Part shown: piece after piece, positions 1-12,803 of the stretch
Layout of the letters: each line of letters begins with the position of its first letter
Position numbering within the stretch: position 1 is the stretch's first letter
Assembly (NCBI RefSeq): GCF_030518215.1
Contig: NZ_JAULRT010000052.1
Location: forward strand, 682,001 to 746,000
Source: Gilvimarinus algae
GTDB lineage: Bacteria > Pseudomonadota > Gammaproteobacteria > Pseudomonadales > Cellvibrionaceae
DNA length: 64,000 nucleotides
Direction of reading: 5' to 3'
The notes under the pieces: generated by a model
Told to the model about the DNA's origin: nothing
Seen by the model: only the letters and a program-made list of their open reading frames with translations
Databases searched by the model: none
Translations under genes and position numbers: made by a program

Positions 1-1085
1 GTATCCACCCGAACGGTGGTGTCCACCTGTGCCGGCGCTCCGCCTTCACGCTCGGGGCGGGTTTTCACCGGCGGCGTATTGGTTTTCATGGAGGGAGTGG
101 GCGCATCGCTGCTTTTCTGCGCCCCAGAACTGGCCGCCGGCTTGGCCGGCGTATTGCTCGGCGCTGTGGCTGCGGGTGCCGGCCCCTTACCCTTACCGTG
201 CAATTGATCCAGCAGAGCCTCGAACTCATCGTCGGTTATTTCATCACTTCCGGTAGCCGCTTTATCGGCTTTTGCCGGCTCTTTGGCCGCGGGCTTAGCA
301 GGGGGCGGCGCAGAAGCTTCCCCGCCCGGCCCCTTGCCTTTGCCGTGAAGCTCATCGAGCAATGCTTCAAACTCGTCATCACTGATGTCATCACTGACCG
401 GCGCTTTCGTATTCGTCGGCACACCGGGGGCTTTGCCCTCCCCGTGCAAGCTGTCGAGCAGCGCCTCGAATTCATCATCGGAAATATCATCGCCCGCGGA
501 GCTTGGGCTTTCGCTGGCTCCGGCGGCTTTTGGAGAGGAAGGCGATGGTGTGTCACCGGCCAGCGCGTCCAGTAAATCACTGAACTCGTCGTCGGTCATA
601 TCGCTGCCGCCGCGAATTTTTCCTGGCCCCGCTTCGGTGTTAGCAGCCGCTGATTCCGTCGTGGACACCTGATTTACCGGTGACTCCTGCAAATCTTCAC
701 AGGCGACCAAGCGCTCGAGGGTGGCAATCAGCTCCGCAGACGGTGGTGTCACCTCTTCGCGGTGGGACACTTGTTCAAATTGCTGGTTTACAACGTCCAG
801 AGCTTGGAGCACAACATCCATCAACTCCGAGGTCACTTCGCGTTTACCGTTGCGTAAAATATCAAACAGGTTTTCGGTGACGTGGCAGCACTCCACCATG
901 GGGGTGAGCTGCAAAAAGCCTGCACCGCCTTTTACCGTGTGAAAACCGCGAAAAATGGCGTTGAGCAGGTCGCGATCGTCGGGCCTGCGCTCGAGCTCGA
1001 CCAGCTGCTCGGAGAGGTTCTCCAGGATCTCTCCAGCCTCAACCAGAAAGTCCTGAAGAATGTCTTCATCATCACCGAAACCCAT
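1..1085 (-). CDS. cheA: Chemotaxis histidine kinase CheA, N-terminal part (cut by window edge)
   Basis: CheA phosphorylates CheY in response to receptor arrays. About 361 residues are visible from an ATG at 1085; the C-terminal P3-P5 domains lie outside the window. Residues 1-130 form the P1 Hpt domain, with the phospho-acceptor His49 in GFHTVKGGAGF. From about residue 160 to 300 there is a low-complexity Ala/Pro/Lys linker carrying four copies of a short motif (starting near residues 162, 199, 232 and 281; core DDEFEALLDxLHGKGKG). The last visible residues, DTTVRVD, match the beginning of the P3 dimerization domain. There is therefore no room for a folded P2 CheY-docking domain between P1 and P3. 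The gene follows cheZ with only 11 bp between them, so it is cotranscribed with cheY-cheZ. The left edge interrupts the gene, so nothing suggests it is a pseudogene. Confidence 0.95.
   Translation of the reverse strand, partial: MGFGDDEDILQDFLVEAGEILENLSEQLVELERRPDDRDLLNAIFRGFHTVKGGAGFLQLTPMVECCHVTENLFDILRNGKREVTSELMDVVLQALDVVNQQFEQVSHREEVTPPSAELIATLERLVACEDLQESPVNQVSTTESAAANTEAGPGKIRGGSDMTDDEFSDLLDALAGDTPSPSSPKAAGASESPSSAGDDISDDEFEALLDSLHGEGKAPGVPTNTKAPVSDDISDDEFEALLDELHGKGKGPGGEASAPPPAKPAAKEPAKADKAATGSDEITDDEFEALLDQLHGKGKGPAPAATAPSNTPAKPAASSGAQKSSDAPTPSMKTNTPPVKTRPEREGGAPAQVDTTVRVD
187..602 (-). repeat. Four-copy DDEFEALLDxLHG motif array in CheA linker
   Basis: Protein-level repeat inside cheA. 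Copies begin at DNA positions near 602 (degenerate, DMTDDEFSDLLDALAG), 491, 392 and 245 (three near-identical copies of D[DE]I[ST]DDEFEALLDxLHG, followed by GEGKAPG or GKGKGP). Spacing is 37, 33 and 49 residues and the material between is Ala/Pro/Lys-rich. Codon choice differs between copies (for example LLD is written with different codons), so conservation is at the protein rather than the DNA level. Confidence 0.9.
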
Positions 1086-1096
1086 GCACTGATCCT

Positions 1097-1891
1097 CTAA
1101 AATCCGAGACTGGAGAGCAGATCGTCCACTTCGTCCTGACTGGAGACCACATCGTCTTTCTGGGTATTGATTTGTGGCCCTTCACCGCGACCGTTATCGA
1201 CGACGCGGGCCTTACCCTCGCTATCGGCCTCGACATGCAAACCTGTAATTTCTTCCACTTGGCCCGCGATTCGAACCAGACTGACCAAGTCCTGCTCGAC
1301 CTCGGCAATCAAGCCCATCACCCTCTTCAACACCTGCCCGGTGAGATCCTGAAAACCCTGCTCGAGAATAATTTCCTGGAGATTTTTGCCAAGCTGCTCG
1401 GTGCCGCTTTCCATTTGCGCCAAGAAATCTTCCATGCGGGTGTACAGCGTGCGGAACTCCTCGGCGCTCATGTCCCCGCTCTGGAGCCTGGTCCATTCGT
1501 TGCGAAGATTGTTGGCTTCCTGCCCCAAATTCATGGCAATGGGCGCCGCCTCTTCTACCATATCCATGGTTTTATCGGCGGCTTTTTGGGTGAGCTCGAT
1601 AACGTACTTGAGACGATCGGAAGCATCGCGAATTTCTGATCGTTCAATGTCCGGCGGCTCCTTACTGAAATCGCCATCGACATTGAAGTTGACGATCGCG
1701 TTATGCAGGCCGCGAGTCAAGCGACCAACGGACTGATACAAGTGTTTGTCCCGCGACTCAATAATCGAATGTATCAGCTTGGAAGCTTCAGCAAAGTCAT
1801 TCCCCTGAAGCTTTTCGACCAGCAGGCTGGCACTCTCCTGCAGCTCTTTGACAAACAGGTTATTGTCGTGCTCTTGCTTTTCCGAAGTCAT
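1097..1891 (-). CDS. cheZ: CheY-P phosphatase CheZ
   Basis: CheZ accelerates dephosphorylation of CheY-P and ends the motor signal. The 264-residue protein has the long helical hairpin typical of the family and the catalytic segment GFQDLTGQ, with Gln181 at the place of the E. coli catalytic Gln147. The C-terminal peptide SQDEVDDLLSSLGF (residues 251-264) is the CheY-tethering helix, separated from the bundle by a polar linker. It is somewhat longer than E. coli CheZ (214 residues), as is usual for Pseudomonas-type CheZ. It lies between cheY (27 bp upstream) and cheA (11 bp downstream) in one operon. ATG start at 1891. Confidence 0.97.
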   Translation of the reverse strand: MTSEKQEHDNNLFVKELQESASLLVEKLQGNDFAEASKLIHSIIESRDKHLYQSVGRLTRGLHNAIVNFNVDGDFSKEPPDIERSEIRDASDRLKYVIELTQKAADKTMDMVEEAAPIAMNLGQEANNLRNEWTRLQSGDMSAEEFRTLYTRMEDFLAQMESGTEQLGKNLQEIILEQGFQDLTGQVLKRVMGLIAEVEQDLVSLVRIAGQVEEITGLHVEADSEGKARVVDNGRGEGPQINTQKDDVVSSQDEVDDLLSSLGF

Positions 1892-1918
1892 TGTTGTGCC
1901 TTATTCTTTTCTGGAAGT

Positions 1919-2302
1919 CTAGCCGACGCGCTCGAATATTTTTTCTATTTTTTCCTTGAGTGCGGCAGCGGTGAACGGCTTAACCACATAGCCGTTGACG
2001 CCAGCCTGTGCGGCCTCGACAATCTGATCGCGCTTGGCTTCCGCCGTCACCATCAGCACCGGCAAAGAGGCCAGCTTTTCATCGGCACGGACGGCCCTGA
2101 GTAGCTCGATGCCACTCATTCCTGGCATATTCCAATCGGTCACCAGAAAATCAAAGCCCCCACTTTTCAGCATCGGCAAAGCGGTGACCCCGTCGTCCGC
2201 TTCATGGGTATTGCTAAACCCCAAATCTCTAAGCAGGTTTTTTATGATCCGTCGCATTGTCGAAAAGTCATCGACAATGAGAATCTTCATATCTTTATCC
2301 AA
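1919..2302 (-). CDS. cheY: Chemotaxis response regulator CheY
   Basis: CheY carries the signal from CheA to the flagellar switch by binding FliM when phosphorylated. A single receiver domain of 127 residues shows Asp11/Asp12, phospho-acceptor Asp56 ([11 protein letters not shown]), Thr86 (MVTAEAK) and Lys108 (YVVKPF). Start choice: the codon at 2302 is TTG, with GGAGG five bases upstream, giving [13 protein letters not shown]. The ATG at 2290 (MKILIVDDF) has only a weak upstream GGA. The longer form agrees in length with E. coli, Vibrio and Shewanella CheY, so the TTG is preferred. It is transcribed with cheZ and cheA downstream of fliA (146 bp gap). Confidence 0.96.
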
Positions 2303-2448
2303 TGCTGCCTCCGTCTCACCCCAAACAGGGAAGTATGGTTTAACTCTTAGTCTAGCCGCTGGCGGCTGTGAATCCAGTGCCAGCAGGCTACATACAAATT
2401 AGGTCCAGCCGAACCGAGCTGGAAAATTACTGGGAATTGCGCCCCGGG

Positions 2449-3192
2449 TCAATCGCCCAGCGTCCAGTCAGACAGCTTGGCTCGCAGGCGGCTGGCGGCC
2501 TGCGAGTGGATTTGGCTCACCCGGGACTCGCTTACGCCTAAAATTTGACCAATTTCCTTGAGGTTTAACTCTTCATCATAATACAGAGCCAAGACAAGCT
2601 TTTCTCGCTCGGGCAGCAGAGTTATCGCCTGGCTGAGCGATCGCTTGAGGCTTTCACGGGTAAAGCCCTCTTGCGGGTTGGCAAATTCGTCGCCCTCGCC
2701 GGCCAAAGATGCGCTGGCGTCGTCGGCAAAGGTCTCTTCATAGCTGAACAGGCGGCTGGAATTGGTGTCACGTAGCATGGCGTAGTACTCGTCCAGTCCC
2801 ACACCCAGCTCGGCGGCGACCTCCGCGTCTTCGGCGTCGCGACCCTCGCGCGCCTCGACTCGGCCAAGGGCCTCACTCACCCGCCTGGCGTTGCGGTGTA
2901 CCGAGCGCGGCGCCCAATCACCACGGCGCATCTCATCGACAATCGCACCGCGAATTCGGATCCCGGCGTAGGTTTCAAAGCTTGCACCTTTGGAGCCGTC
3001 GTACTTCTGCGCGGCCTCCAGCAATCCGATCATTCCTGCCTGGATTAAATCATCTACCTGAACGCTGGCCGGCATACGCAGCATCATATGATGAGCGATG
3101 CGCTTAACCAAACCAGCGTACTCTTCCACCTCGATGGTGTTAGCTTGTGCTCTTGTCTCAGTGTACATAGCCAACCCGTTTGCCGCGTTCAT
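2449..3192 (-). CDS. fliA: Flagellar sigma factor FliA (sigma-28)
   Basis: FliA directs RNA polymerase to late flagellar promoters (flagellin, flgM, chaperones) after FlgM export. The 247-residue protein has sigma-70 regions 2, 3 and 4 but no region 1.1. Recognisable blocks are VDDLIQAGMIGLLEAA (region 2), FETYAGIRIRGAIVDEMRR with GDWAPRSVHR (regions 2.4-3), and the region 4 helix-turn-helix LKEIGQILGVSESRVSQIHS. The start is the ATG at 3192, three bases after the fleN stop, so translation is probably coupled. Three promoters matching its consensus are visible in this window (fliS, fliC, flgM). Confidence 0.97.
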   Translation of the reverse strand: MNAANGLAMYTETRAQANTIEVEEYAGLVKRIAHHMMLRMPASVQVDDLIQAGMIGLLEAAQKYDGSKGASFETYAGIRIRGAIVDEMRRGDWAPRSVHRNARRVSEALGRVEAREGRDAEDAEVAAELGVGLDEYYAMLRDTNSSRLFSYEETFADDASASLAGEGDEFANPQEGFTRESLKRSLSQAITLLPEREKLVLALYYDEELNLKEIGQILGVSESRVSQIHSQAASRLRAKLSDWTLGD

Positions 3193-3195
3193 TGA

Positions 3196-4023
3196 TCAGT
3201 ACTCCGAGCCCGCCGCCTGCAGCAGTCGCTCGACGAAAAACTCCAAACGTCCGGTAGGGGCCGAGGGCAAAGGCCAGCGATCGACATTCTCGGCCAGCTC
3301 ACGAAGCGCCTGCGCCGCTTTGCAATTGGGAGCGAATTCTAACAGGGGCGTTTGCTTCTGAATGGCCTTGCGCACTGTTTCATCGAAAGGCACCTGGCCA
3401 ACGTACTGCAAGCTAACGTCGAGGAATCGCTCACAGACCGTATTGAGCTTATTGAACATTAACCGCCCTTCACTGGCGGTCCTAGTCATGTTGGCCACCA
3501 CACGAAAGCGCTGCAGGTCGTATTCTTTATTGAGTAGTTTGATTAGGGCGTAGGCGTCGGTGATTGAAGAGGGCTCATCGCACACCACCACCAGCACTTC
3601 GTTTGCCGCGCGCACGAAACTCACTACCGTGTCGGAAATACCCGCCGCCGTATCGATGACCAATACATCGACTTGTTCGCTGAGTTCACTAAAGGCACTG
3701 ATCAGCCCTGCATGTTCCTGCGCACTCAGCTCTGCCATGCGCTGCACCCCGGAAGCGGCCGGCACAATTTTGATGCCGCCCGGACCGGTAACCAACACTT
3801 CTTGTAGGGTACAACGCCCAGCGAGCACATCCGCCAGGGTGTATTTGGGTGAAATACCCAGAAGTACATCGACATTGGCCAAGCCCAAGTCGGCGTCCAT
3901 CAATACCACCCGGCGGCGCAGCTGGGCGAGCGCAATACTCAGGTTCACGGAGATATTGCTTTTACCGACTCCCCCTTTGCCTCCAGAGACGGCGATAACC
4001 TGTACGGGGCGACTTTGACTCAT
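3196..4023 (-). CDS. fleN: MinD-like ATPase FleN (FlhG), flagellar number regulator
   Basis: FleN/FlhG is a MinD/ParA-type ATPase that limits the number of polar flagella, in Pseudomonas by antagonising FleQ. The 275-residue protein opens with the deviant Walker A SGGKGGVGKSNISVNL (about residues 14-29), followed by the MDADLGLANVDVLLGI switch and VLVIDTAAGISDTVV. No membrane segment is seen, but the C-terminal region could hold the amphipathic targeting helix common in MinD proteins. The gene sits between flhF and fliA, the standard arrangement in polarly flagellated gammaproteobacteria. ATG at 4023. Confidence 0.95.
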   Translation of the reverse strand: MSQSRPVQVIAVSGGKGGVGKSNISVNLSIALAQLRRRVVLMDADLGLANVDVLLGISPKYTLADVLAGRCTLQEVLVTGPGGIKIVPAASGVQRMAELSAQEHAGLISAFSELSEQVDVLVIDTAAGISDTVVSFVRAANEVLVVVCDEPSSITDAYALIKLLNKEYDLQRFRVVANMTRTASEGRLMFNKLNTVCERFLDVSLQYVGQVPFDETVRKAIQKQTPLLEFAPNCKAAQALRELAENVDRWPLPSAPTGRLEFFVERLLQAAGSEY

Positions 4024-4096
4024 TCGAACTCTCTCTCTACAGACCCGGCCCGACGGGCTCTGGGTACTGGCGTAACCTTACGCCCTGGATTTGCCA

Positions 4097-5449
4097 TTAA
4101 CCCTGAGCTTTACGGGCACTTGCGGCGGCCTGAGCCAGCTGCGCGGCCCGACTGATCAACTGATAGCCGCGGGCAAGCTCAATATCCTCCGGGATATCCT
4201 GCCCATGCGTAGTATAGGCTATTGGCAGCCTTGCTTGTATGGCGCAATCTACCGCTTCTCCTAGACTGGCGGTTTCATCCAGCTTGGTCAATACACAACC
4301 TTCAAGGGCTGCTTCACGGTAGGCATGGACGGCTGCCTTGAGCATTTGTGGCTGACTGTTGGAGGGCAGTACTAAATAGGACTTAATACGCGCAATACCT
4401 GCCAACTGCTGCATCTGCTGTTTTAGCTGCGGGTCGCCATGGCGCATGCCCGCGGTATCGATGAGCACCAGCTCACAGCGGCGCAAACTGCGCAAAACGC
4501 TGGGCAGTGGGTTATTTGCATCCACGACCCGCAGCGGCACGCGAAGAATGCGAGCCAGGGAGCGAAGCTGGTCGTGGCCCGCCAGTCGCTGAGTGTCGGT
4601 GGTCACCAGCGCAACCTTATCGGCACCGTGTTTCATAACATAGCGCGCCGCCAACTTAGCGACGGTAGTGGTCTTGCCCGCGCCTGTGGGGCCGACGAAC
4701 GCAAAGACCCCCCCTGCGGCGGTCACATCCTTACCGGCCACAGGCACAGCCTTAGCCATTCGCGCCATGGCCTCGGGCCAAGCTTTCGCCACCAGGCGGT
4801 GAGACAGGGGCTTTTTCAGTACCGCCCGACATACTCGCTCGGAGAAGCCCAATCTTTCAAGCCGCTGACCAATACCACTGAGCTGCGCTTTACCCGGTCC
4901 ACGAGGGCTGGCGCCCAAACGCCCCAATTGCTCTTCGAGTAACAGCCGCATTTGGGCGATTTCCTCGTGCAGCATATCAATATCGTTGCTGGCATTGGCG
5001 GTGGTAACCGCAGCTGGCGCGGGTGTCTCAAGTAAACCATAGCGCTCTGCGGCCGACTGGGTTCTAGCCGGGGCGTGCTCGGCAGAGCTGTGCCCCTGAA
5101 CGCGGATACCGGCATTCACCACCTGGTTATCGCGCAGGAATTCGTCGGCGGAGGCCTCAGTCAATTGCTTGGCGGCCAGACGGCGACTGGCAAGTTCAAT
5201 GTCAGCCGCTATATCGGCTCCGGATTTGCCCAATTTATGAGAGGCCTCGGCGGCAAATGGCGCTGCGGTGTTGGCGTTTTCCGACACGGCCGGAGCCACG
5301 GCACTGGCGGGTGCTCCGCCGCTGGTAAGAATCTCGACCCCCTCTTTCACCCGACGACTTGAGAGAATGATGGCGTCTTCGCCGAGTTCCTGACGCACCA
5401 GCTCCAAAGCCCGGCGCATGTCTTTGGCCACAAAACGTTTCACCTGCAT
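4097..5449 (-). CDS. flhF: Flagellar biosynthesis GTPase FlhF
   Basis: FlhF is an SRP-family GTPase that marks the cell pole for flagellar assembly. The 450-residue protein has the conserved N-terminal MQVKRFVAKDMRRALELVRQ, a basic/variable B domain, and an NG GTPase domain with GPTGAGKTTTVAKLAARY (P-loop near residue 253), the DTQR motif, LIDTAGMRHGD and TKLDE. It lies 19 bp downstream of flhA and 73 bp upstream of fleN. Together with FleN it predicts a single or few polar flagella rather than a peritrichous pattern. Confidence 0.96.
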   Translation of the reverse strand: MQVKRFVAKDMRRALELVRQELGEDAIILSSRRVKEGVEILTSGGAPASAVAPAVSENANTAAPFAAEASHKLGKSGADIAADIELASRRLAAKQLTEASADEFLRDNQVVNAGIRVQGHSSAEHAPARTQSAAERYGLLETPAPAAVTTANASNDIDMLHEEIAQMRLLLEEQLGRLGASPRGPGKAQLSGIGQRLERLGFSERVCRAVLKKPLSHRLVAKAWPEAMARMAKAVPVAGKDVTAAGGVFAFVGPTGAGKTTTVAKLAARYVMKHGADKVALVTTDTQRLAGHDQLRSLARILRVPLRVVDANNPLPSVLRSLRRCELVLIDTAGMRHGDPQLKQQMQQLAGIARIKSYLVLPSNSQPQMLKAAVHAYREAALEGCVLTKLDETASLGEAVDCAIQARLPIAYTTHGQDIPEDIELARGYQLISRAAQLAQAAASARKAQG

Positions 5450-5468
5450 AGCAATCTCCCCTTACACC

Positions 5469-7676
5469 CTAGCGATCGGCTGATACTGAGGCATCGATCG
5501 TAATCTGTTTGTTATCCGGAATTTCTGTATAAGCCAACACGTGCATGTCCGGAACACTGTGCCGACAGAACCTGGCCAGCATCGATCTGAGCGGCGCGGC
5601 CACTAAGAGCACCAGCGGTTTACCCGCCATCTCCTGCTTTTGAGCAGCGCTCACCAAGGATTTTTGCAACTTCTCCGCCAACCCCGGCTCAATAAACGCA
5701 CTGTCATCAGCGCCAGCTTTTTGTGCCTGCTGTACGGTACCTAGCAATAGCTGTTCCAGCTGTGGGTTCAGCGTGATAACCGGCAATTCCGGCGCCGTGC
5801 CATTGATGCCCTGGACAATTTGTCGGGCCAGGGCGACACGCGCCAGGGCCGTTAAAGCGGCGGGATCTTGACTCTTGCCGCTCTGCCCTGCCAAAGCTTC
5901 GGCAATACTGCGGATATCGCGCACAGCCACGCGCTCACGAAGCAGATTCTGCAGCACTTTCAGCAAGGTGTTCAGGTTAAGGGTATTGGGTACCAGTTCG
6001 TCGACAAGCTTGGGCGATGTCTTCGCCAACATATCCAGCAGCTTCTGCACATCTTCATGACCAATAAGCTCATGCACGTGCTGCTGCAGAATTTGGTTGA
6101 GATGGGTCGCCACTACAGTACTGGCATCCACGACGGTGTAACCCAGAGTCTGGGCCTGCTCCTTCTGCGAACTACTGATCCAGATGGCGTCCAAACCAAA
6201 GGCCGGGTCCTTGGTCTTGATGCCGTCGAGATCGCCAAAGACCTGCCCTGGGTTGATGGCCAGGTCCCGCTCCGGGTGAATCTCAGCCTCGGCAGCAGTG
6301 ACGCCCATAAGGCTGATGCGATAGCCATTGGGTACCAACTCAAGATTGTCGCGAATGTGCACGGTGGGCACCAGAAAACCCATCTCCTGCGAGAGTTTTT
6401 TCCGCACGCCTTTTATGCGACCGAGCAAAGTGCCCCCCTGATTTTTGTCCACCATGGGGATCAGGCGATAACCCACCTCCAGGCCGATCACATCCACGGG
6501 CTGAACGTCGTCCCAGTTGAGCTCCGTTGCCGGCTCGCCCGGCGGCAAAGCAGCACCGGCCGGAGCCGCTTTAGTCGGAGCGGGCGCTGCCGCCCCCGTA
6601 TTGACCGGTGTGCCCGGCCGGACGCCCTTGGGAAAGTAGTCGTCTTCCACCGCCTCGGGCTGCTGCTTGCGCCAGTGAATGTAGTAGGCGATCGCGGCAC
6701 ACAGCGCCGCCAGGCCGAGGAAGGCAATGTGGGGCATACCGGGAATAACGCCCATGATGAACAAAATTCCCGCGGCAATAATCAGGGCTTTGGGAGAGTC
6801 GAACATCTGCGACATCACCTGCGCGCGCATATCCTGCGAGGTATTGACCCGTGTCACCAGGATGGCCGTGGCGGTCGACAGCATAAGCGAGGGAATTTGG
6901 GCCACCAGGCCGTCACCAATGGTCAACAGAATGTACTTCTGCAGGGCATCGGCAAACTCCAGATTGTGCTGCACCATGCCGACACCCAGACCGCCGATGA
7001 TATTGATGGCCAGGATCAAAATACCGGCGATGGCATCACCGCGAACAAACTTACTGGCACCGTCCATGGCGCCATAAAAATCGGCCTCGCTGGCGACATC
7101 TTCGCGCCGGCGTCGGGCCTCATCCTGATCAATCAAGCCCGCGTTCAGGTCGGCATCAATCGCCATTTGTTTGCCCGGCATGGCATCGAGGGTAAACCTG
7201 GCGCTGACCTCGGAGATACGCCCTGCACCCTTGGTGACCACCACAAAGTTAATGATCATCAGAATCAGAAACACCACCAAGCCGACAGCGTAGTTGCCGC
7301 CAATCACCACTTCACCAAAGGCTTGAATCACCTTACCCGCCGCGTCCCCGCCCTCGTGGCCGTTGAGCAAGACCACACGGGTGGAAGCCACGTTCAGGGC
7401 GAGCCTGAGCAGGGTCGCCACCAGCAAAATCGTGGGGAAAGCCGCAAAATCAAGCGGGCGCAATGCGTAGACGCCCACCAACAACACCACGATAGACAGG
7501 GCGATATTGAACGAGAAAAAGGCATCCAGCATAAACGCGGGCATGGGAAGAATCATCATCCCGAGCAGCATGATCAGCAAGATAGGAATGCCGATATTGC
7601 CTTGGCCTACCCCTTTGAGCTGCAAGAGCGCGGCTTTGCTGTTGGTCTTATTGAGTTGCCCGAAAGATAGTGCCAT
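5469..7676 (-). CDS. flhA: Flagellar type III export gate protein FlhA
   Basis: FlhA forms the nonameric export gate of the flagellar secretion system and presents late substrates through its cytoplasmic domain. The 735-residue protein has about eight membrane segments in the first 330 residues, including the FHIPEP-type LRLALNVASTRVVL region and the charged cytoplasmic loop (GKQMAIDADLNAGLIDQDEARRRRED). An Ala/Pro-rich linker near residues 355-385 leads into the C-terminal export-substrate platform. It is slightly longer than the usual 690-705 residues because of this linker. The ATG at 7676 has no convincing Shine-Dalgarno; an inverted repeat ends two bases upstream of it. Confidence 0.97.
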   Translation of the reverse strand: MALSFGQLNKTNSKAALLQLKGVGQGNIGIPILLIMLLGMMILPMPAFMLDAFFSFNIALSIVVLLVGVYALRPLDFAAFPTILLVATLLRLALNVASTRVVLLNGHEGGDAAGKVIQAFGEVVIGGNYAVGLVVFLILMIINFVVVTKGAGRISEVSARFTLDAMPGKQMAIDADLNAGLIDQDEARRRREDVASEADFYGAMDGASKFVRGDAIAGILILAINIIGGLGVGMVQHNLEFADALQKYILLTIGDGLVAQIPSLMLSTATAILVTRVNTSQDMRAQVMSQMFDSPKALIIAAGILFIMGVIPGMPHIAFLGLAALCAAIAYYIHWRKQQPEAVEDDYFPKGVRPGTPVNTGAAAPAPTKAAPAGAALPPGEPATELNWDDVQPVDVIGLEVGYRLIPMVDKNQGGTLLGRIKGVRKKLSQEMGFLVPTVHIRDNLELVPNGYRISLMGVTAAEAEIHPERDLAINPGQVFGDLDGIKTKDPAFGLDAIWISSSQKEQAQTLGYTVVDASTVVATHLNQILQQHVHELIGHEDVQKLLDMLAKTSPKLVDELVPNTLNLNTLLKVLQNLLRERVAVRDIRSIAEALAGQSGKSQDPAALTALARVALARQIVQGINGTAPELPVITLNPQLEQLLLGTVQQAQKAGADDSAFIEPGLAEKLQKSLVSAAQKQEMAGKPLVLLVAAPLRSMLARFCRHSVPDMHVLAYTEIPDNKQITIDASVSADR

Positions 7677-7678
7677 AG

Positions 7679-7736
7679 AGGTACGGTTTTTTGACGCCTG
7701 TCGTTGTGTAGGAGGCGTATCGCAAGAACCGTACCT
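7679..7736. repeat. Inverted repeat abutting the flhA start codon
   Basis: Perfect 10-bp arms AGGTACGGTT (7679-7688) and AACCGTACCT (7727-7736) separated by 38 bp. A second, inner pair ACGCCT/AGGCGT (7694-7699 and 7713-7718) is nested inside. On the flhA strand the proximal arm lies directly before the ATG, where a ribosome binding site would be expected. It could be an RNA structure controlling flhA translation or a protein-binding site overlapping the promoter. Confidence 0.75.
7721..7736 (-). promoter_or_regulatory. Possible sigma-54 promoter of flhA (weak)
   Basis: On the minus strand AGGTAC-N5-TTGCG: the -12 TTGC is perfect and the GG/GC spacing is correct, but the -24 element has two mismatches from TGGCAC. 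flhA is FleQ/sigma-54 controlled in Pseudomonas, so the position makes sense. Transcription would begin near 7710. Confidence 0.4.
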
Positions 7737-7768
7737 AAAGCGGTTGGAGAGTCAAAACCTTTTCGCGC

Positions 7769-7826
7769 AAACGCTCAAGGGGGACAGCCAGAGGGGGAAT
7801 GCCTAGCTCAATGGGTTTGAGCGTTT
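7769..7826. repeat. Second inverted repeat in the flhB-flhA gap
   Basis: Perfect 10-bp arms AAACGCTCAA (7769-7778) and TTGAGCGTTT (7817-7826) with a 38-bp spacer, the same geometry as the repeat at 7679-7736. A second GCTCAA (7806-7811) can pair with the same TTGAGC (7817-7822) as a tight hairpin, so two mutually exclusive structures are possible. A further small hairpin, GCCCAA-CGCT-TTGGGC (7835-7850), follows the flhB stop. None has a T-tract that would make a standard terminator. Confidence 0.65.
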
Positions 7827-7859
7827 AGACCCTCGCCCAACGCTTTGGGCCCGAACCCC

Positions 7860-8999
7860 TCATCCGTCGAAGCGCATGTCCCTGGGCACATTGATGTCCC
7901 GGGGATAAAGCGGCTTATCGCCGCGCCCGCGCCGGTAGGCTCTAAGCCCGAAGACGTAGGCCAGCACCTGTGCAACTGCCATGTACAGGCCCGCAGGGAT
8001 TTCATCGTCGATCTCGGTGGTGTGATAAACAGCGCGCGCCAGAACCGGCGACTGGATAATATCGATGTCATTGACTTTGGCAATTTCCCGAATTTTCAAG
8101 GCGACATGATCTACCCCTTTGGCCAACAATATCGGTGTTGCCATGTTCTCAGGATCGTACTTAAGAGCCACCGAGTAGTGCGTAGGGTTGGTAATAACCA
8201 CATCCGCCTCGGGCACCTTGGACATCATGCGCCGCTGCGCCATTTCCCTTTGCAACTGTCGAATACGTCCCTTGACCTCGGGTTTGCCCTCAGTGTCCTT
8301 GTGCTCATCTTTGATTTCCTGGCGGGACATTTTCAGCTTTTTGCTGTGATCCCACATCTGAAAAGGTACATCGATCACCGCGATCAAAATCGTTACCGCG
8401 GACATCGCGATGGTGGCGTAAGCACTGATCTGCAGCGACTCCACAATACCCACCCGGGTTTCCTCGGCCGCCAGCTGAAGCATGTCTTGCTGCCAAAAAA
8501 ACAGCGCAAACATAGCCACAGCCATGACCACAGCCACTTTTCCCAGAGACTTGGCGAGTTCAACCAGAGCCTTGACTGAGAACATTCGCTTGAGACCCGC
8601 CAGCGGGTTCATGCGACTGAATTTTGGCGCCATCGCCTTGGCACTGAGCAACCAGCCACCCAACGCAATGGGTCCGACAATAGAAGCCACCAGGAGCATA
8701 AACAACAAGGGCACCAGGGACATCAGCCCTTCATAAAATGAGCTGCCCAAATGAGCATACATCGCATTGGTGTCAAACACCTCGGCGCGGGCCAAAGTGA
8801 AGTTATTAATCGTTAGGTTTTGCATACTCAGGCTGATGAGCTGGCCAAACACGTAGAGGCCAATGCTACCCGCCAGCAATATAAAGGTGGTTGTCAGATC
8901 CCGAGACCTGGGAATCTGCCCATCTTCACGCGCCTTTTCCAGTTTTCGGGGCGTGGGTTCTTCTGTTTTTTCCTGACTGCTGTCGTTATCTTCGGCCAT
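7860..8999 (-). CDS. flhB: Flagellar export switch protein FlhB
   Basis: FlhB switches the flagellar export apparatus from rod/hook to filament substrates. The 379-residue protein has a charged cytoplasmic N-terminus, four membrane segments between about residues 35 and 215, a basic linker, and the autocleavage motif NPTH (Asn271-His274) in ADVVITNPTHYSVALKY. The rest of the FlhB-CC domain follows (KGVDHVALKIREIA). Length is typical. Its ATG overlaps the fliR stop codon in a TGATG junction, implying translational coupling. It is the last gene of the fliLMNOPQR-flhB operon. Confidence 0.97.
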   Translation of the reverse strand: MAEDNDSSQEKTEEPTPRKLEKAREDGQIPRSRDLTTTFILLAGSIGLYVFGQLISLSMQNLTINNFTLARAEVFDTNAMYAHLGSSFYEGLMSLVPLLFMLLVASIVGPIALGGWLLSAKAMAPKFSRMNPLAGLKRMFSVKALVELAKSLGKVAVVMAVAMFALFFWQQDMLQLAAEETRVGIVESLQISAYATIAMSAVTILIAVIDVPFQMWDHSKKLKMSRQEIKDEHKDTEGKPEVKGRIRQLQREMAQRRMMSKVPEADVVITNPTHYSVALKYDPENMATPILLAKGVDHVALKIREIAKVNDIDIIQSPVLARAVYHTTEIDDEIPAGLYMAVAQVLAYVFGLRAYRRGRGDKPLYPRDINVPRDMRFDG

Positions 9000-9784
9000 C
9001 AGGGCAGCCTCATCAACTGCTGGCCGATCAACGCCGCATCATCAAATACCTGGCGGAAATACGGCAAAAACGCCATCAGGCTGATCCACATAAACAGCAG
9101 CCCAAAGATCAGAGTGATGGGAAAACCAACGGTAAACACGTTGATTTGTGGCGCGGAGCGATTCATGACCCCAAAGGCCATATTGATCACTAAAAGCGCC
9201 GTGAAAACCGGCAAGACAAACACCAGCGCGGCACTGAACATCCAGCTACCCAGCGAAGCTATCTCAATAAAAGTCTCTACGCTGAGCCCGGCTCCCCCCA
9301 CAGGCAGACTGGTAAAGCTTGAGACAATAATATCGATGATTACCAGATGACCGTTCATAATAAGAAACAGGACGGTGGACAGCAGCAGGTAAAACTGCGA
9401 AAGAACCGTCACTGAAATGCCATTACTGGGATCGTTCATGGAGGCGAAGCCCAGCCCCATCTTCATCGCGATCAACTGCCCCGCGAGCACAAAGATGTGC
9501 AGTGCCACCTGAAAAGCAAACCCGAGTGAGAGACCGATCAGCACTTCATTAAGCACCCGCAAAAACGCCTCGACACTGACATAGTCTACAGGCGGCGGAC
9601 TGGGTAACATGGGGCTAACTAGCAAGGTAACAAACAGCGCCAATAAGATTCTAATCCGCGCTGTAACCGTTCGCGCGCCAAAAATCGGCGCGGCCATAAA
9701 CAAGGCGCCGATACGAATAAACGGCCAGAGATACTGACCGATAAACTGGGACAGCTGGGCATCGGACAGAACGAGAGGCTCCAC
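8999..9784 (-). CDS. fliR: Flagellar export apparatus protein FliR
   Basis: FliR is a membrane component of the FliPQR export channel. The 261-residue protein has about six hydrophobic segments, beginning with LWPFIRIGALFMAAPIFG, and the conserved GLGFASMNDPS segment near the middle. The start is a GTG at 9784, reading MEPLVLSDAQLSQFIGQYLW; a weak AGG lies upstream. Two bases separate it from the fliQ stop, and it overlaps flhB, so the export genes are tightly packed. Length matches the family (about 255-265 residues). Confidence 0.95.
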   Translation of the reverse strand: MEPLVLSDAQLSQFIGQYLWPFIRIGALFMAAPIFGARTVTARIRILLALFVTLLVSPMLPSPPPVDYVSVEAFLRVLNEVLIGLSLGFAFQVALHIFVLAGQLIAMKMGLGFASMNDPSNGISVTVLSQFYLLLSTVLFLIMNGHLVIIDIIVSSFTSLPVGGAGLSVETFIEIASLGSWMFSAALVFVLPVFTALLVINMAFGVMNRSAPQINVFTVGFPITLIFGLLFMWISLMAFLPYFRQVFDDAALIGQQLMRLP

Positions 9785-9786
9785 GA

Positions 9787-10056
9787 TTAGCCTATCAAGT
9801 TGGGGATGCTGTTGAACAAGCGATTGAACAAGTCCATAAGCTCCATCACCATCCAGTTCCCGGCAATCATAATAGTGATCAGCATAACGATAAGCCGAGG
9901 CAAAAAGCTTAAAGTTTGTTCGTTAATCTGGGTGGCCGCCTGAAACATACTCACCACCAGCCCCACCACAAGACTGGGGCCGACAATAACCAGCACCATC
10001 AACACGGTAAGATAAAGTCCATCGGCGAATAAACCCAGCGCTATCTCGGGCGTCAT
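9787..10056 (-). CDS. fliQ: Flagellar export apparatus protein FliQ
   Basis: FliQ is the small membrane subunit that wraps around FliP and FliR in the export gate. The protein has 89 residues with two hydrophobic hairpin helices (about residues 15-40 and 52-75) and the conserved FQAATQINEQTLSFLPR loop between them. The length is exactly that of the family. It sits between fliP and fliR with 3-bp and 2-bp gaps, in the invariant fliP-fliQ-fliR order. ATG at 10056. Confidence 0.95.
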   Translation of the reverse strand: MTPEIALGLFADGLYLTVLMVLVIVGPSLVVGLVVSMFQAATQINEQTLSFLPRLIVMLITIMIAGNWMVMELMDLFNRLFNSIPNLIG

Positions 10057-10059
10057 TGC

Positions 10060-10899
10060 TCAGACTCCAAAGCTCGCTGCCAGCGTGCCGATAATCATGG
10101 CCCAACCATCGACCAAAACGAACAACATGATTTTAAACGGCAGTGAAACAATCAGCGGCGAGAGCATCATCATGCCCATGGCCATCAAGACACTGGCCAC
10201 GACGATATCAATCACCAGGAAAGGAATAAAAATGATAAACCCGATTTGAAACGCCGTTTTCAGCTCGCTGGTGACGAATGCCGGTACCAAAATCGAAAAA
10301 GGCGTATCCTCGGGTGTTGCAATTTCCACATCGCCGGCGATACCCACAAACAGGGCAATATCGCTTTCCCGAGTCTGAGCGAGCATAAAGCTATGAAACG
10401 GCCGGGCTGCCTCAGCAAGCGCCTGCTGCGCGCTGATTTCATTATTGATGTAGGGCTGTAAAGCCTGGACATTGGCTTCGTCGAACACCGGTTTCATAAT
10501 AAAAAGGGTTAAAAACAATGACAGGCCAATCAGTATCTGATTTGACGGTGACTGCTGCAACCCAAGTGCCTGACGCAAAATGGCGAAGACAATAATAATG
10601 CGGGTAAAAGACGTTACCATCATGAGCAATGCTGGCAGGAATGTCAGCATGGTCATAATGGCGAGAATTTGCAGGGTGACCGAATACTCTTCGGTGCCGT
10701 CATCGTTGGTAGTGACGGTGAAAGCCGGCAGCCCTGGTATGGCCGGCAGTGCGCTGCTCTGGGAGCTCTGCGCCAACTCTGTCGGCGCAACCTCTGGCGC
10801 CTGCTGCGCCTGGGCCGGGACTGCCGTAATCACCCAAAGCGCCAAGAGTAAAATCAGCCCACGAACTAGCGTCATAGGGTTAGGATCGGCGCGCAGCAT
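10060..10899 (-). CDS. fliP: Flagellar export apparatus protein FliP
   Basis: FliP forms the pentameric core of the export channel. The 279-residue protein has an N-terminal signal peptide (hydrophobic core [21 protein letters not shown]) and four membrane segments. It carries the family blocks [20 protein letters not shown] and [19 protein letters not shown]. Start choice: the ATG at 10899 is preceded by GAGG at good spacing and overlaps the fliO end. An internal ATG at 10875 would avoid the overlap but has no ribosome binding site, so the longer form is preferred. Confidence 0.95.
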
Positions 10900-11368
10900 C
10901 GTCTACCTCGGCGGGGTTGCTTTTAGGCCCACTGGCACCGCCTGACTTCATGACAGACAGTAATTTTTCGGCGAAATCCTGACGCTCTTCACTGGCCTCG
11001 AGCGTCACAACGGGCTCATCAAACACATGTAACTGACGAACGGTTTGGGGCGTCACCCCGAGCAAGATCTGTGTCCCGGCAACGTCCACTAACAGCAGTC
11101 GCTCTCGAGTGCCAAGCGGCATACTGGCCACCACCCGCATGTGCGGTGACTTGAGCCAGCCGCTGCCGCCGCCGAGTTTTTTCACGCACCAAGACAGCAG
11201 CAAAATCAGGGCGATAACCGCAGCGAGCGCCACCAGCACAGACAATAGTTGACCGGCCGAACCCGAGCGCACAACCTCTGCGCCCTCTTTTTCGGCGGAT
11301 TGCGCCAGTGCCAGGCTCGCCACGCAAACGCTGGCGCCGGTCAATGCGCTCTTGAGCCAGAGTTTCAT
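10880..11368 (-). CDS. fliO: Flagellar assembly protein FliO
   Basis: FliO is a bitopic membrane protein that helps FliP oligomerise. The 162-residue protein shows a hydrophobic N-terminal signal-like segment, a second strong membrane helix ([22 protein letters not shown], residues about 43-64, written here in part), and a cytoplasmic domain with [20 protein letters not shown] typical of FliO. The sequence is poorly conserved in general, but position between fliN and fliP and the domain layout make the call safe. It overlaps the start of fliP by 20 bp. ATG at 11368. Confidence 0.9.
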
Positions 11369-11371
11369 CGT

Positions 11372-11806
11372 CTAACGCAACTTCTTAATCCGCTCTGACG
11401 GACTGATAACGTCGGTCATGCGGATACCAAATTTTTCGTTAACCACGACCACTTCGCCGTGAGCAATCAAAGTGCCGTTCACTTTCACGTCCAGTGGCTC
11501 CCCGGCCAATCGATCCAGCTCAATGACCGAACCCTGGTTGAGCTGCAGCAAGTTGCGAATAGTAATAGAGGTGCTGCCCACTTCCATTGAAATAGTGACG
11601 GGAATATCGAGAATCAGATCGAGCTCGGGACCCACTTCGCGGGGCCGGCCTTCCTGCTTTAACTCATCCAGGGCCATAGCACTGGCATCGTCCTCGGCGG
11701 CACTGTCCACCACCTCTTGCTCCTGCATGGCGGCAGCCCACTCATCGGCCATGGCATCCTGGTCCAACTCGGACTCATCATTATTATCAATATCATCGTT
11801 TGCCAT
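11372..11806 (-). CDS. fliN: Flagellar motor switch protein FliN
   Basis: FliN builds the lower part of the C-ring with FliM. The 144-residue protein has an acidic N-terminus with MADEWAAAMQEQE, then the SpoA/surface-presentation domain (LDIPVTISMEVGSTSITIRN, LLQLNQGSVIELDRLAGEP, GEVVVVNEKFGIRMTDV). Start choice: ATG at 11806 is preceded by AAGGAGG at ideal spacing. A frame extension to 11842 exists but lacks such a site. It overlaps the end of fliM by 14 bp, indicating coupling. Confidence 0.96.
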   Translation of the reverse strand: MANDDIDNNDESELDQDAMADEWAAAMQEQEVVDSAAEDDASAMALDELKQEGRPREVGPELDLILDIPVTISMEVGSTSITIRNLLQLNQGSVIELDRLAGEPLDVKVNGTLIAHGEVVVVNEKFGIRMTDVISPSERIKKLR

Positions 11807-12803
11807 GCTTGCCTCCTTCAGCGGCCGTAATGTTATAGGCACTGCTGTGATCGATAAAGTCGTTTACTTTCAGGGCCAGATTGCCCTTGTGCTGTCCGAG
11901 TTGTGTGCGAAACACTGGAACGCCATTGGCGGTTAACACGTGCTGATCGGGGAACTCCACCGGGATGATATCCCCCACGTCCAAATCAACGATGTCTCTG
12001 AGGGTGATTTCGCGACGGACAATCTCACACTCAAGCTCTACCGAAGCGGTCAGTACATCCTCGCGCAGGGCCTTGACCCAGCGCTCGTCCTGCTCGTCAC
12101 TGTCACTTTGCAAGCCGGCATCCAGCACCTCGCGAATCGGCTCGATCATTGAGTAGGGAATGGTCAGGTGCAATTCACCACCGCCGCCGTCCAGTTCAAT
12201 GTGAAAGGTGCTCACCACCACCACTTCACTGGGGCTAACGATATTGGCCAGTGAAGGGTTGACCTCCGAGTTGATGTACTCAAACTCAATGGGCATCACC
12301 GCCTTCCAGGCCTCACCCAAATCGACAAAGACCTGATTGAGCACCATCTGCACGACTCGCAGTTCAGTAGGAGTAAATTCACGGCCTTCAATTTTGGCGT
12401 GACGCCCGTCGCCACCAAAAAAATTGTCCACAAGCTTAAACACCAGCCGCGCATCGAGAATGACCAGGGCCGTTCCGCGCAAGGGGCGAAACTTAACCAT
12501 GTTCAGGCTGGTGGGCACGTAGAGTGTGTGGACATATTCACCAAATTTCTGAATTTGAATTCCGCCCACAGAAACATCAGCGGTTCGGCGGAGCATGTTG
12601 AACATGCTGATACGAGTGTAGCGGGCAAAACGCTCGTTGATCATTTCCAAGGTGGGCATGCGCCCACGGACGATGCGATCCTGACTGGTCAGGTCATAGG
12701 AGCGGACCGCACCGGGATCGAGATCCGACTCAGTATCGATGTCCCCTTCGTCAACGCCGTGCAACAGCGCATCGATTTCATCTTGCGTTAATAAGTCCTG
12801 CAC
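11793..12803 (-). CDS. fliM: Flagellar motor switch protein FliM
   Basis: FliM receives CheY-P and changes the direction of motor rotation. The 336-residue protein begins MQDLLTQDEIDALLHGVD, the CheY-binding N-terminal peptide. The middle domain (ERFARYTRISMFNMLRRTADV, then NLVKFRPLRG-like and GDGRHAKIEGREFTPTE segments) and a C-terminal SpoA domain follow. The start is GTG at 12803 with GAGG upstream. It is preceded by fliL (12 bp) and overlaps fliN. Its N-terminal motif strongly resembles the CheA linker repeats and the CheZ tail found elsewhere in this window. Confidence 0.97.
   Translation of the reverse strand: MQDLLTQDEIDALLHGVDEGDIDTESDLDPGAVRSYDLTSQDRIVRGRMPTLEMINERFARYTRISMFNMLRRTADVSVGGIQIQKFGEYVHTLYVPTSLNMVKFRPLRGTALVILDARLVFKLVDNFFGGDGRHAKIEGREFTPTELRVVQMVLNQVFVDLGEAWKAVMPIEFEYINSEVNPSLANIVSPSEVVVVSTFHIELDGGGGELHLTIPYSMIEPIREVLDAGLQSDSDEQDERWVKALREDVLTASVELECEIVRREITLRDIVDLDVGDIIPVEFPDQHVLTANGVPVFRTQLGQHKGNLALKVNDFIDHSSAYNITAAEGGKHGKR

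Follow-up and report, generated by a model that had tools for sequence, protein, structure and literature searches.

In Escherichia coli, one face of CheY is common to the P2 domain of the kinase CheA, the phosphatase CheZ and the motor switch protein FliM, with P2 using the helix 4–strand 5–helix 5 face. Passages of the respective papers describe a common CheY face used by FliM and CheZ (PMC3774744), a C-terminal CheY-binding peptide in CheZ (PMC12270135), and affinities in E. coli of ~0.5 µM for P2–CheY and ~900 µM for isolated P1–CheY (PMC5705603), so that a CheA devoid of P2 could gain from a tether. Nearly 52% of CheAs are given as lacking P2 in the consulted part of PMC10782961. In Vibrio, an extra domain of CheA, LID, has been placed between P2 and P3, where it binds the AIF domain of ParP, and these sources, as far as excerpted, say that it occurs only with ParC and ParP (PMC7534058, PMC5706961). 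Here, a 64,000-nucleotide stretch of Gilvimarinus algae DNA (contig NZ_JAULRT010000052.1, positions 682,001–746,000; hereafter the window) was analysed, in which the linker between P1 and P3 of CheA holds a short peptide in four copies, similar to the ones that FliM and CheZ use to bind CheY. We consider it rather probable that these copies are CheY-docking peptides that replace P2, with some of them possibly shared with ParP.

Linker copies and the P2 position of CheA

The CheA, CheZ and FliM genes all lie on the minus strand, where the original prediction had placed them. The cheA gene is cut by the window start; positions 3–1085 encode the N-terminal half of the protein (residues 1–361 of 743), comprising P1 (Pfam Hpt, residues 8–101) and the P1–P3 linker, and the remainder lies beyond the window start, the complete 743-residue gene spanning positions 6355–8586 of locus L009. 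The four linker copies (window 195–599) read [IM]-[ST]-D-D-E-F-x-x-L-L-D-x-L. From the N-terminus, these are copy 1 (MTDDEFSDLLDALAG, residues 163–177, positions 555–599), which is the most divergent and has a predicted helix at residues 165–176; copy 2 (ISDDEFEALLDSLHG, residues 201–215, positions 441–485; helix 203–213); copy 3 (ISDDEFEALLDELHG, residues 234–248, positions 342–386; helix 236–246); and copy 4 (ITDDEFEALLDQLHG, residues 283–297, positions 195–239; helix 285–295).

An AlphaFold2 model of the product of window positions 3–1085, computed with 36 sequences, comprised a confident P1 followed mostly by disorder. Past residue 135, it contained just four isolated helices, each within one copy, and no compact folded domain was found in the linker of this model, in which 123 of the 361 residues had pLDDT values below 50. 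The spacers are rich in alanine (25%) and proline (14%), and the copies start 26–66 residues apart. A phmmer search of the linker against the PDB yielded no matches at E≤10, and NCBIfam added nothing on the linker. Across 13 pairs of related species, the copies differed at 30 of 630 residues, with no gaps, and the spacers at 444 of 1349, with 120 gaps; the same pairs showed 201 silent codon differences inside the copies. As judged from these sequence comparisons, the copies are strongly conserved, under purifying selection, within a fast-changing disordered linker.

Pfam matched Hpt and H-kinase_dim in the window CheA, with no match to the P2 families PF09078 and PF07194 between P1 and P3 at E≤0.1. 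The label F6, used below for the window CheA and its relatives, which are gammaproteobacterial, was assigned by similarity to the window CheA together with neighbouring cheY–cheZ (compare PMC7184735, consulted in part), rather than with a class-specific profile. One Vibrio-type CheA (L195) likewise matched Hpt and H-kinase_dim and no P2, and the N-terminal halves of four Pseudomonas CheAs and one Alteromonas CheA gave no P2 at E≤1. In 95 survey CheA N-termini (92 F6-like plus L186, L187 and L189), no P2 was found in F6 CheAs among the matches listed, which covered 25 of 58 families, so that a match confined to a single member could escape; nor was any found in 36 A3 members among the matches listed (25 of 38 families). 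By contrast with this, PF09078 was found in four of eight non-F6 CheAs tested (L213, L214, L248 and L263; E of 4.1e-18 or better); among these four are the two that we call Enterobacteriaceae-type on account of their CheY and FliM. No CheA with both P2 and the copies was seen among those examined.

Likeness to the FliM and CheZ peptides and the CheY face

The CheZ gene (positions 1097–1891; Pfam CheZ, E 1.8e-70) encodes a protein that matches the solved CheZ 1kmi_Z through its last residue and ends in SQDEVDDLLSSLGF, the C-terminal CheY-binding peptide (residues 251–264, positions 1100–1141), which aligns with the tail of 1kmi_Z. FliM (positions 11793–12803; GTG start; Pfam FliM, E 6.2e-74) begins with MQDLLTQDEIDALLHGV and has its N-terminal CheY-binding peptide, TQDEIDALLHGV, at residues 6–17 (positions 12753–12788), a region that reads [ST]Q[DEA]E[IV]DAL[LM] in 29 of 29 fetched FliM N-termini. 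The original prediction had claimed a common motif in the CheA copies, the CheZ tail and the FliM N-terminus, and all six stretches do fit its pattern. For searches at the DNA level, a strict pattern, [ST][DEQ][DE]E[FIVLM][DE]xLL, was drawn up with the CheA, CheZ and FliM sequences in view. Over the whole 4.2-Mb genome, it yielded five matches, namely three CheA copies, CheZ and FliM (copy 1 does not fit), and the reversed pattern, used as a control, yielded none; given how the pattern was chosen, these five matches show rarity and are not an independent test. The same search of 80 other genomes gave 266 matches, and the reversed pattern gave 4. For the 47 of them with full match lists, a hand tally assigned 126 of 150 matches to CheA, CheZ or FliM, with FliM called from the matched letters where its location was lacking. 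The observation made in the original prediction is confirmed.

An independent profile was built from 31 FliM and 190 CheZ peptides (15 and 45 distinct, respectively), with no CheA sequence. The FliM and CheZ peptides of the window, being part of the profile themselves, rank first and second; among the 91,197 11-mers of the window, CheA copies 2, 3, 1 and 4 rank 3, 5, 7 and 8. Across the 186 usable loci, the CheA linker held the top-scoring 11-mer outside CheZ and FliM 129 times, with 4.6 expected by length (eight of 194 were dropped as the linker was not parsed). When linkers were residue-shuffled, p<0.05 was reached in 177 of 193 loci.

The presumed partner, CheY, is encoded at positions 1919–2302 of the minus strand (Pfam Response_reg; top solved match 3to5, plus other CheY entries). 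Across 187 rows of F6 CheYs, with the window's own entered twice, I95, Y106, K109, P110, F111 and K119 were present in all 187, and R92 (171), Q94 (184), V103 (185), N104 (185) and K117 (171) in most. The face that FliM uses is, in this alignment, almost invariant. In two CheYs of the Enterobacteriaceae type, positions 92, 94, 103, 104 and 117 are occupied by K, N, A, S and E, respectively. According to passages of PMC7184735, R92K, Q94N and V103A are among the CheY changes that occurred when an F7 CheA took over, and were mapped to the E. coli P2 side. If F6 CheAs are indeed without P2, these replacements may reflect a change in how CheY docks, from peptides to P2. In part of PMC11978298, P. 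putida CheA is reported to have pulled down CheY and CheZ and to have transferred phosphate to CheY. Back from the window start, the gene order on the minus strand is cheA (cut), cheZ, cheY, fliA, fleN, flhF, flhA, flhB, fli genes and fliM, with names other than CheA, CheZ, CheY and FliM assigned by inspection.

Distribution of the copies, LID and ParP

Copies are present in each of the 193 F6 CheAs whose linker is complete, the window CheA among them: one in 8, two in 43, three in 59 and four in 83. The set comprised 194 F6-like CheAs, of which L160 was dropped for its truncated frame. Counting relied on a profile trained on copies from this same F6 set, used instead of the strict regular expression, which overlooks copies that read DAEF, DTEF or EHEF; it gave none in two Pseudomonas loci that have four each by the profile, and the profile also gave three for L092 and four for L212. 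The 112 usable CheAs of the survey genomes all had copies, these genomes having been picked by similarity to the whole query CheA rather than to the motif, with 18 order-sample members reached via CheY. A further 80 loci were found partly with motif-derived peptide patterns, which biases copy counts there; among the 80 loci kept, the closest named relative by CheA is Gilvimarinus xylanilyticus, at 76% identity over its best segment. None of the 27 non-F6 CheAs, including the second CheA of the window's genome (L244), carried copies by the profile.

Of note, several non-F6 CheAs (L244, at C59:14800–18300 of the window's genome, L262, L250, L251 and L187) have another repeated linker peptide, approximately [FY]GFF[DE], such as FGFFDE or YGLFED, with about four such peptides by eye in L244; it may constitute another class of docking peptide. 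The out-of-class CheAs L252, L253 and L254, which are without the motif, have in common, by eye, a single linker piece like PGEVSLDELERAF.

Five Vibrio-type CheAs (L195–L199), so called because their genomes encode a CheY 97–98% identical to V. cholerae CheY3, carry three copies each in a linker of this kind, with ParC and ParP genes nearby. LID was reportedly defined and mapped in a 2014 PNAS study. In the three Vibrio-type linkers inspected by eye, the three copies were the only conserved blocks visible, which, together with the lack of a Pfam P2 match in L195, indicates that LID probably includes at least one copy. The copies might then be LID itself: by binding ParP at its CheW-like AIF domain, they would tie the receptor array to ParC at the pole, their likeness to FliM and CheZ being convergence. 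In keeping with this, ParC and ParP genes are found near cheA in the window's genome and in most relatives fetched, and ParC was called in 101 of 113 survey genomes (weakest orthologue accepted, 191 bits; strongest match rejected, 120), with paralogue-level matches or none in the other 12. In these 12 genomes, a ParP profile, which itself scores low in two ParC-bearing genomes (G121 and G131), found nothing above the CheW background in 11 and a ParP-like gene in G161. The 11 genomes without detectable ParC and ParP (G001, a 91% complete draft, G008, G137, G024, G172, G261, G020, G023, G152, G284 and G546) nevertheless all retain one to four copies. Among them, G284, a single contig of 100% completeness, has three canonical copies; that of G023 (L182) is degenerate. 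In addition, the single copy aligned between the ParP-less sisters L177 and L178 is unchanged (0 of 15 residues), versus 10 differences in 50 spacer residues. The copies thus do not occur only alongside detectable ParC and ParP, as LID is said to do with ParC and ParP, and their retention in 11 of 113 genomes points to a function that does not require ParP. The LID explanation also leaves the FliM and CheZ likeness unaccounted for, and we regard it as unlikely.

The two roles could also be combined, with docking of CheY, and perhaps CheB, as the ancestral function and ParP added later on one or more copies, in which case ParP and CheY might be rivals for the linker. The varying number (one to four) and spacing of the copies mean that they could hold different partners, and ParP is common without being required. 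Against such a division of work, inspection revealed no copy-specific signature separating ParP-bearing from ParP-less genomes; among the latter, L172 and L174 lose LHG in every copy, yet most others retain it in at least one. This combination seems to us a shade less likely still than LID alone.

Several other features of these genomes were noted. In L172 and L174 (G172 and G261), ITD[DE]EFExLL is kept and D-x-L-H-G lost, and L172 has a longer repeat unit such as LPEGVDPDGEITDDEFEALLNQRD. ParC- and ParP-like genes adjoin cheA in nearly all the Pseudomonas loci (L020–L089). P. aeruginosa, which is itself outside the Pseudomonas loci compared, is stated in a passage of PMC12410967 to have no related genes. 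ParP N-termini (positions 1811–2662 of L009 for the protein here) have a common conserved peptide, ALxxYLDxLL, which is perhaps a binding peptide of its own.

CheY docking weighed and compared with known systems

A number of observations weigh against CheY docking, beyond the reported binding of ParP by Vibrio LID. Residue-shuffled linkers matched the real best score in 766 of 38,600 shuffles (2%), and another run placed the 99.9th percentile for shuffles at 14.0 bits, above the median real best score of 10.0. By these scores, the likeness of the CheA copies to FliM and CheZ is significant but moderate, not overwhelming. Two core positions also differ. At the fifth, the copies have F in 567 of 569, versus I or V in 31 of 31 FliM and V, A or I in 190 of 190 CheZ peptides; for this count, a seed pattern that needed F or Y was replaced by a scan with positions 5 and 6 masked, which parsed 189 of 194 linkers. 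At the second, they have D or E in 551 of 559, a count from the seed pattern requiring F or Y, versus Q in every FliM and CheZ sequence placed. A recount that did not require Q found it in 190 of 190 CheZ and 29 of 29 FliM peptides; this left out three FliM fragments without an N-terminus, and the FliM of L183 was not placed by the pattern, yet reads SQDEIDTLL. Of the seven ParP-less CheYs listed, several deviate at positions 92, 94 and 117. As for P2, the remaining four of the eight non-F6 CheAs tested gave no Pfam match to it either and, with copies in none of 27 non-F6 CheAs, the array cannot be predicted from a missing P2 match alone. P2s are known to escape Pfam. Three relatives, which we take from their species names to be of the putida type, had no P2 match by Pfam. 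This is discordant with PMC11978298, where, in the part consulted, P. putida CheA is drawn with a Pfam-predicted CheY-binding domain. Finally, E. coli CheA is reported in a passage of PMC10782961 to be able to signal without P2, so that a replacement for it would not be strictly needed.

The weak matches of the copies to Pfam SHOCT and GemA, which with one exception are under the bit cut-off, belong on the same side. The exception is GemA, which reached 29.1 bits over the N-terminal half of the window CheA, slightly more than its cut-off of 27, with no single stretch passing. The FliM and CheZ likeness may accordingly be due in part to a generic capped acidic helix, and the copies might be short acidic helices of this kind that have no particular partner and serve to keep the linker soluble or extended. 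Helices commonly begin with a Ser/Thr-x-x-Glu cap and leucines after it. Such an explanation is hard to reconcile with the near-invariance of E (564) and F (567) at their respective positions in the 569 copies obtained by the masked scan, with the strong purifying selection on the copies next to a freely changing spacer, and with the rarity of the pattern elsewhere in the genome; we consider it very unlikely.

The claim of the original prediction that the CheA repeats dock CheY is supported in part. It is the best-supported reading: no P2 was found, the copies are conserved and persist without detectable ParP, and they resemble FliM and CheZ above chance. On the other side, two near-fixed positions differ, and that prediction had not considered LID, for which binding of ParP has been published and which lies in this linker in Vibrio. 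The genome-scale facts fit CheY docking, with or without a ParP role added later, and do not by themselves prove the partner; we infer from them CheY as that partner, the face used and the effect on phosphotransfer.

If CheY docking in place of P2 is correct, the disordered P1–P3 linker of F6 CheAs would present one to four short helix-forming peptides, each of which would sit on the helix 4–strand 5–helix 5 face of CheY, as FliM and CheZ do. The copies would keep CheY near the phosphorylated histidine of P1, doing the job of E. coli P2, and their multiplicity would raise local CheY. This raises the possibility that the kinase, the phosphatase and the motor bind the same site of CheY through peptides of a single kind. 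If CheA prefers another state of CheY, that preference would most naturally reside in the two near-fixed replacements, F for I, V or A and D or E for Q. A more elaborate scheme is conceivable, although we think it rather improbable: with one CheY face and one peptide type, F and D/E in CheA would favour the unphosphorylated form, such that the product leaves, and FliM and CheZ, with I/V and Q, would favour the phosphorylated one; how much CheY is stored at the array would depend on the number of copies in CheA; and in polar flagellates, competition between ParP and CheY for these copies would link the position of the array to signalling.

The original prediction had the kinase, the phosphatase and the motor competing for one CheY site, with CheY supposed to leave CheA upon phosphorylation if FliM binds it more tightly. 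Such competition is in itself no novelty, because P2 of E. coli is taken to bind CheY at this face as well. A peptide array in place of P2 seems new: in the literature, as represented by titles, listings and portions of the listed papers, no FliM- or CheZ-like CheY-docking repeats in CheA were described. If true, a large group of bacteria, including Pseudomonas and Vibrio-type ones, uses a row of FliM/CheZ-like peptides instead of P2, and phosphotransfer by P2-less CheAs becomes directly testable. It would also provide a new reading of the CheY changes described in the consulted part of PMC7184735 for the takeover of the motor by an E. coli-type CheA, and would make it worth asking whether one set of peptides serves both as the CheY dock and as the ParP-binding LID.

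Among known systems, Vibrio CheA-LID resides in the same linker of orthologous CheAs, and Vibrio-type CheAs hold three such copies; unlike LID, which has been reported only with ParC and ParP, the copies are also found in the 11 genomes without detectable ParC and ParP. With E. coli-type P2 (PF09078, PF07194), the array has in common its position between P1 and P3 and the proposed role of holding CheY near P1, and CheY residues 92, 94 and 103, according to part of PMC7184735, face P2; the difference is that P2 is a folded domain, in contrast to one to four peptides of 15 residues in a disordered linker here. The FliM N-terminal and CheZ C-terminal peptides have the same core, x-x-[DE]-E-hydrophobic-[DE]-x-L-L, a predicted helix and a location in a flexible end or linker, whereas the CheA copies are internal and repeated, have F for I, V or A and mostly D or E for Q, and mostly continue with D-x-L-H-G.

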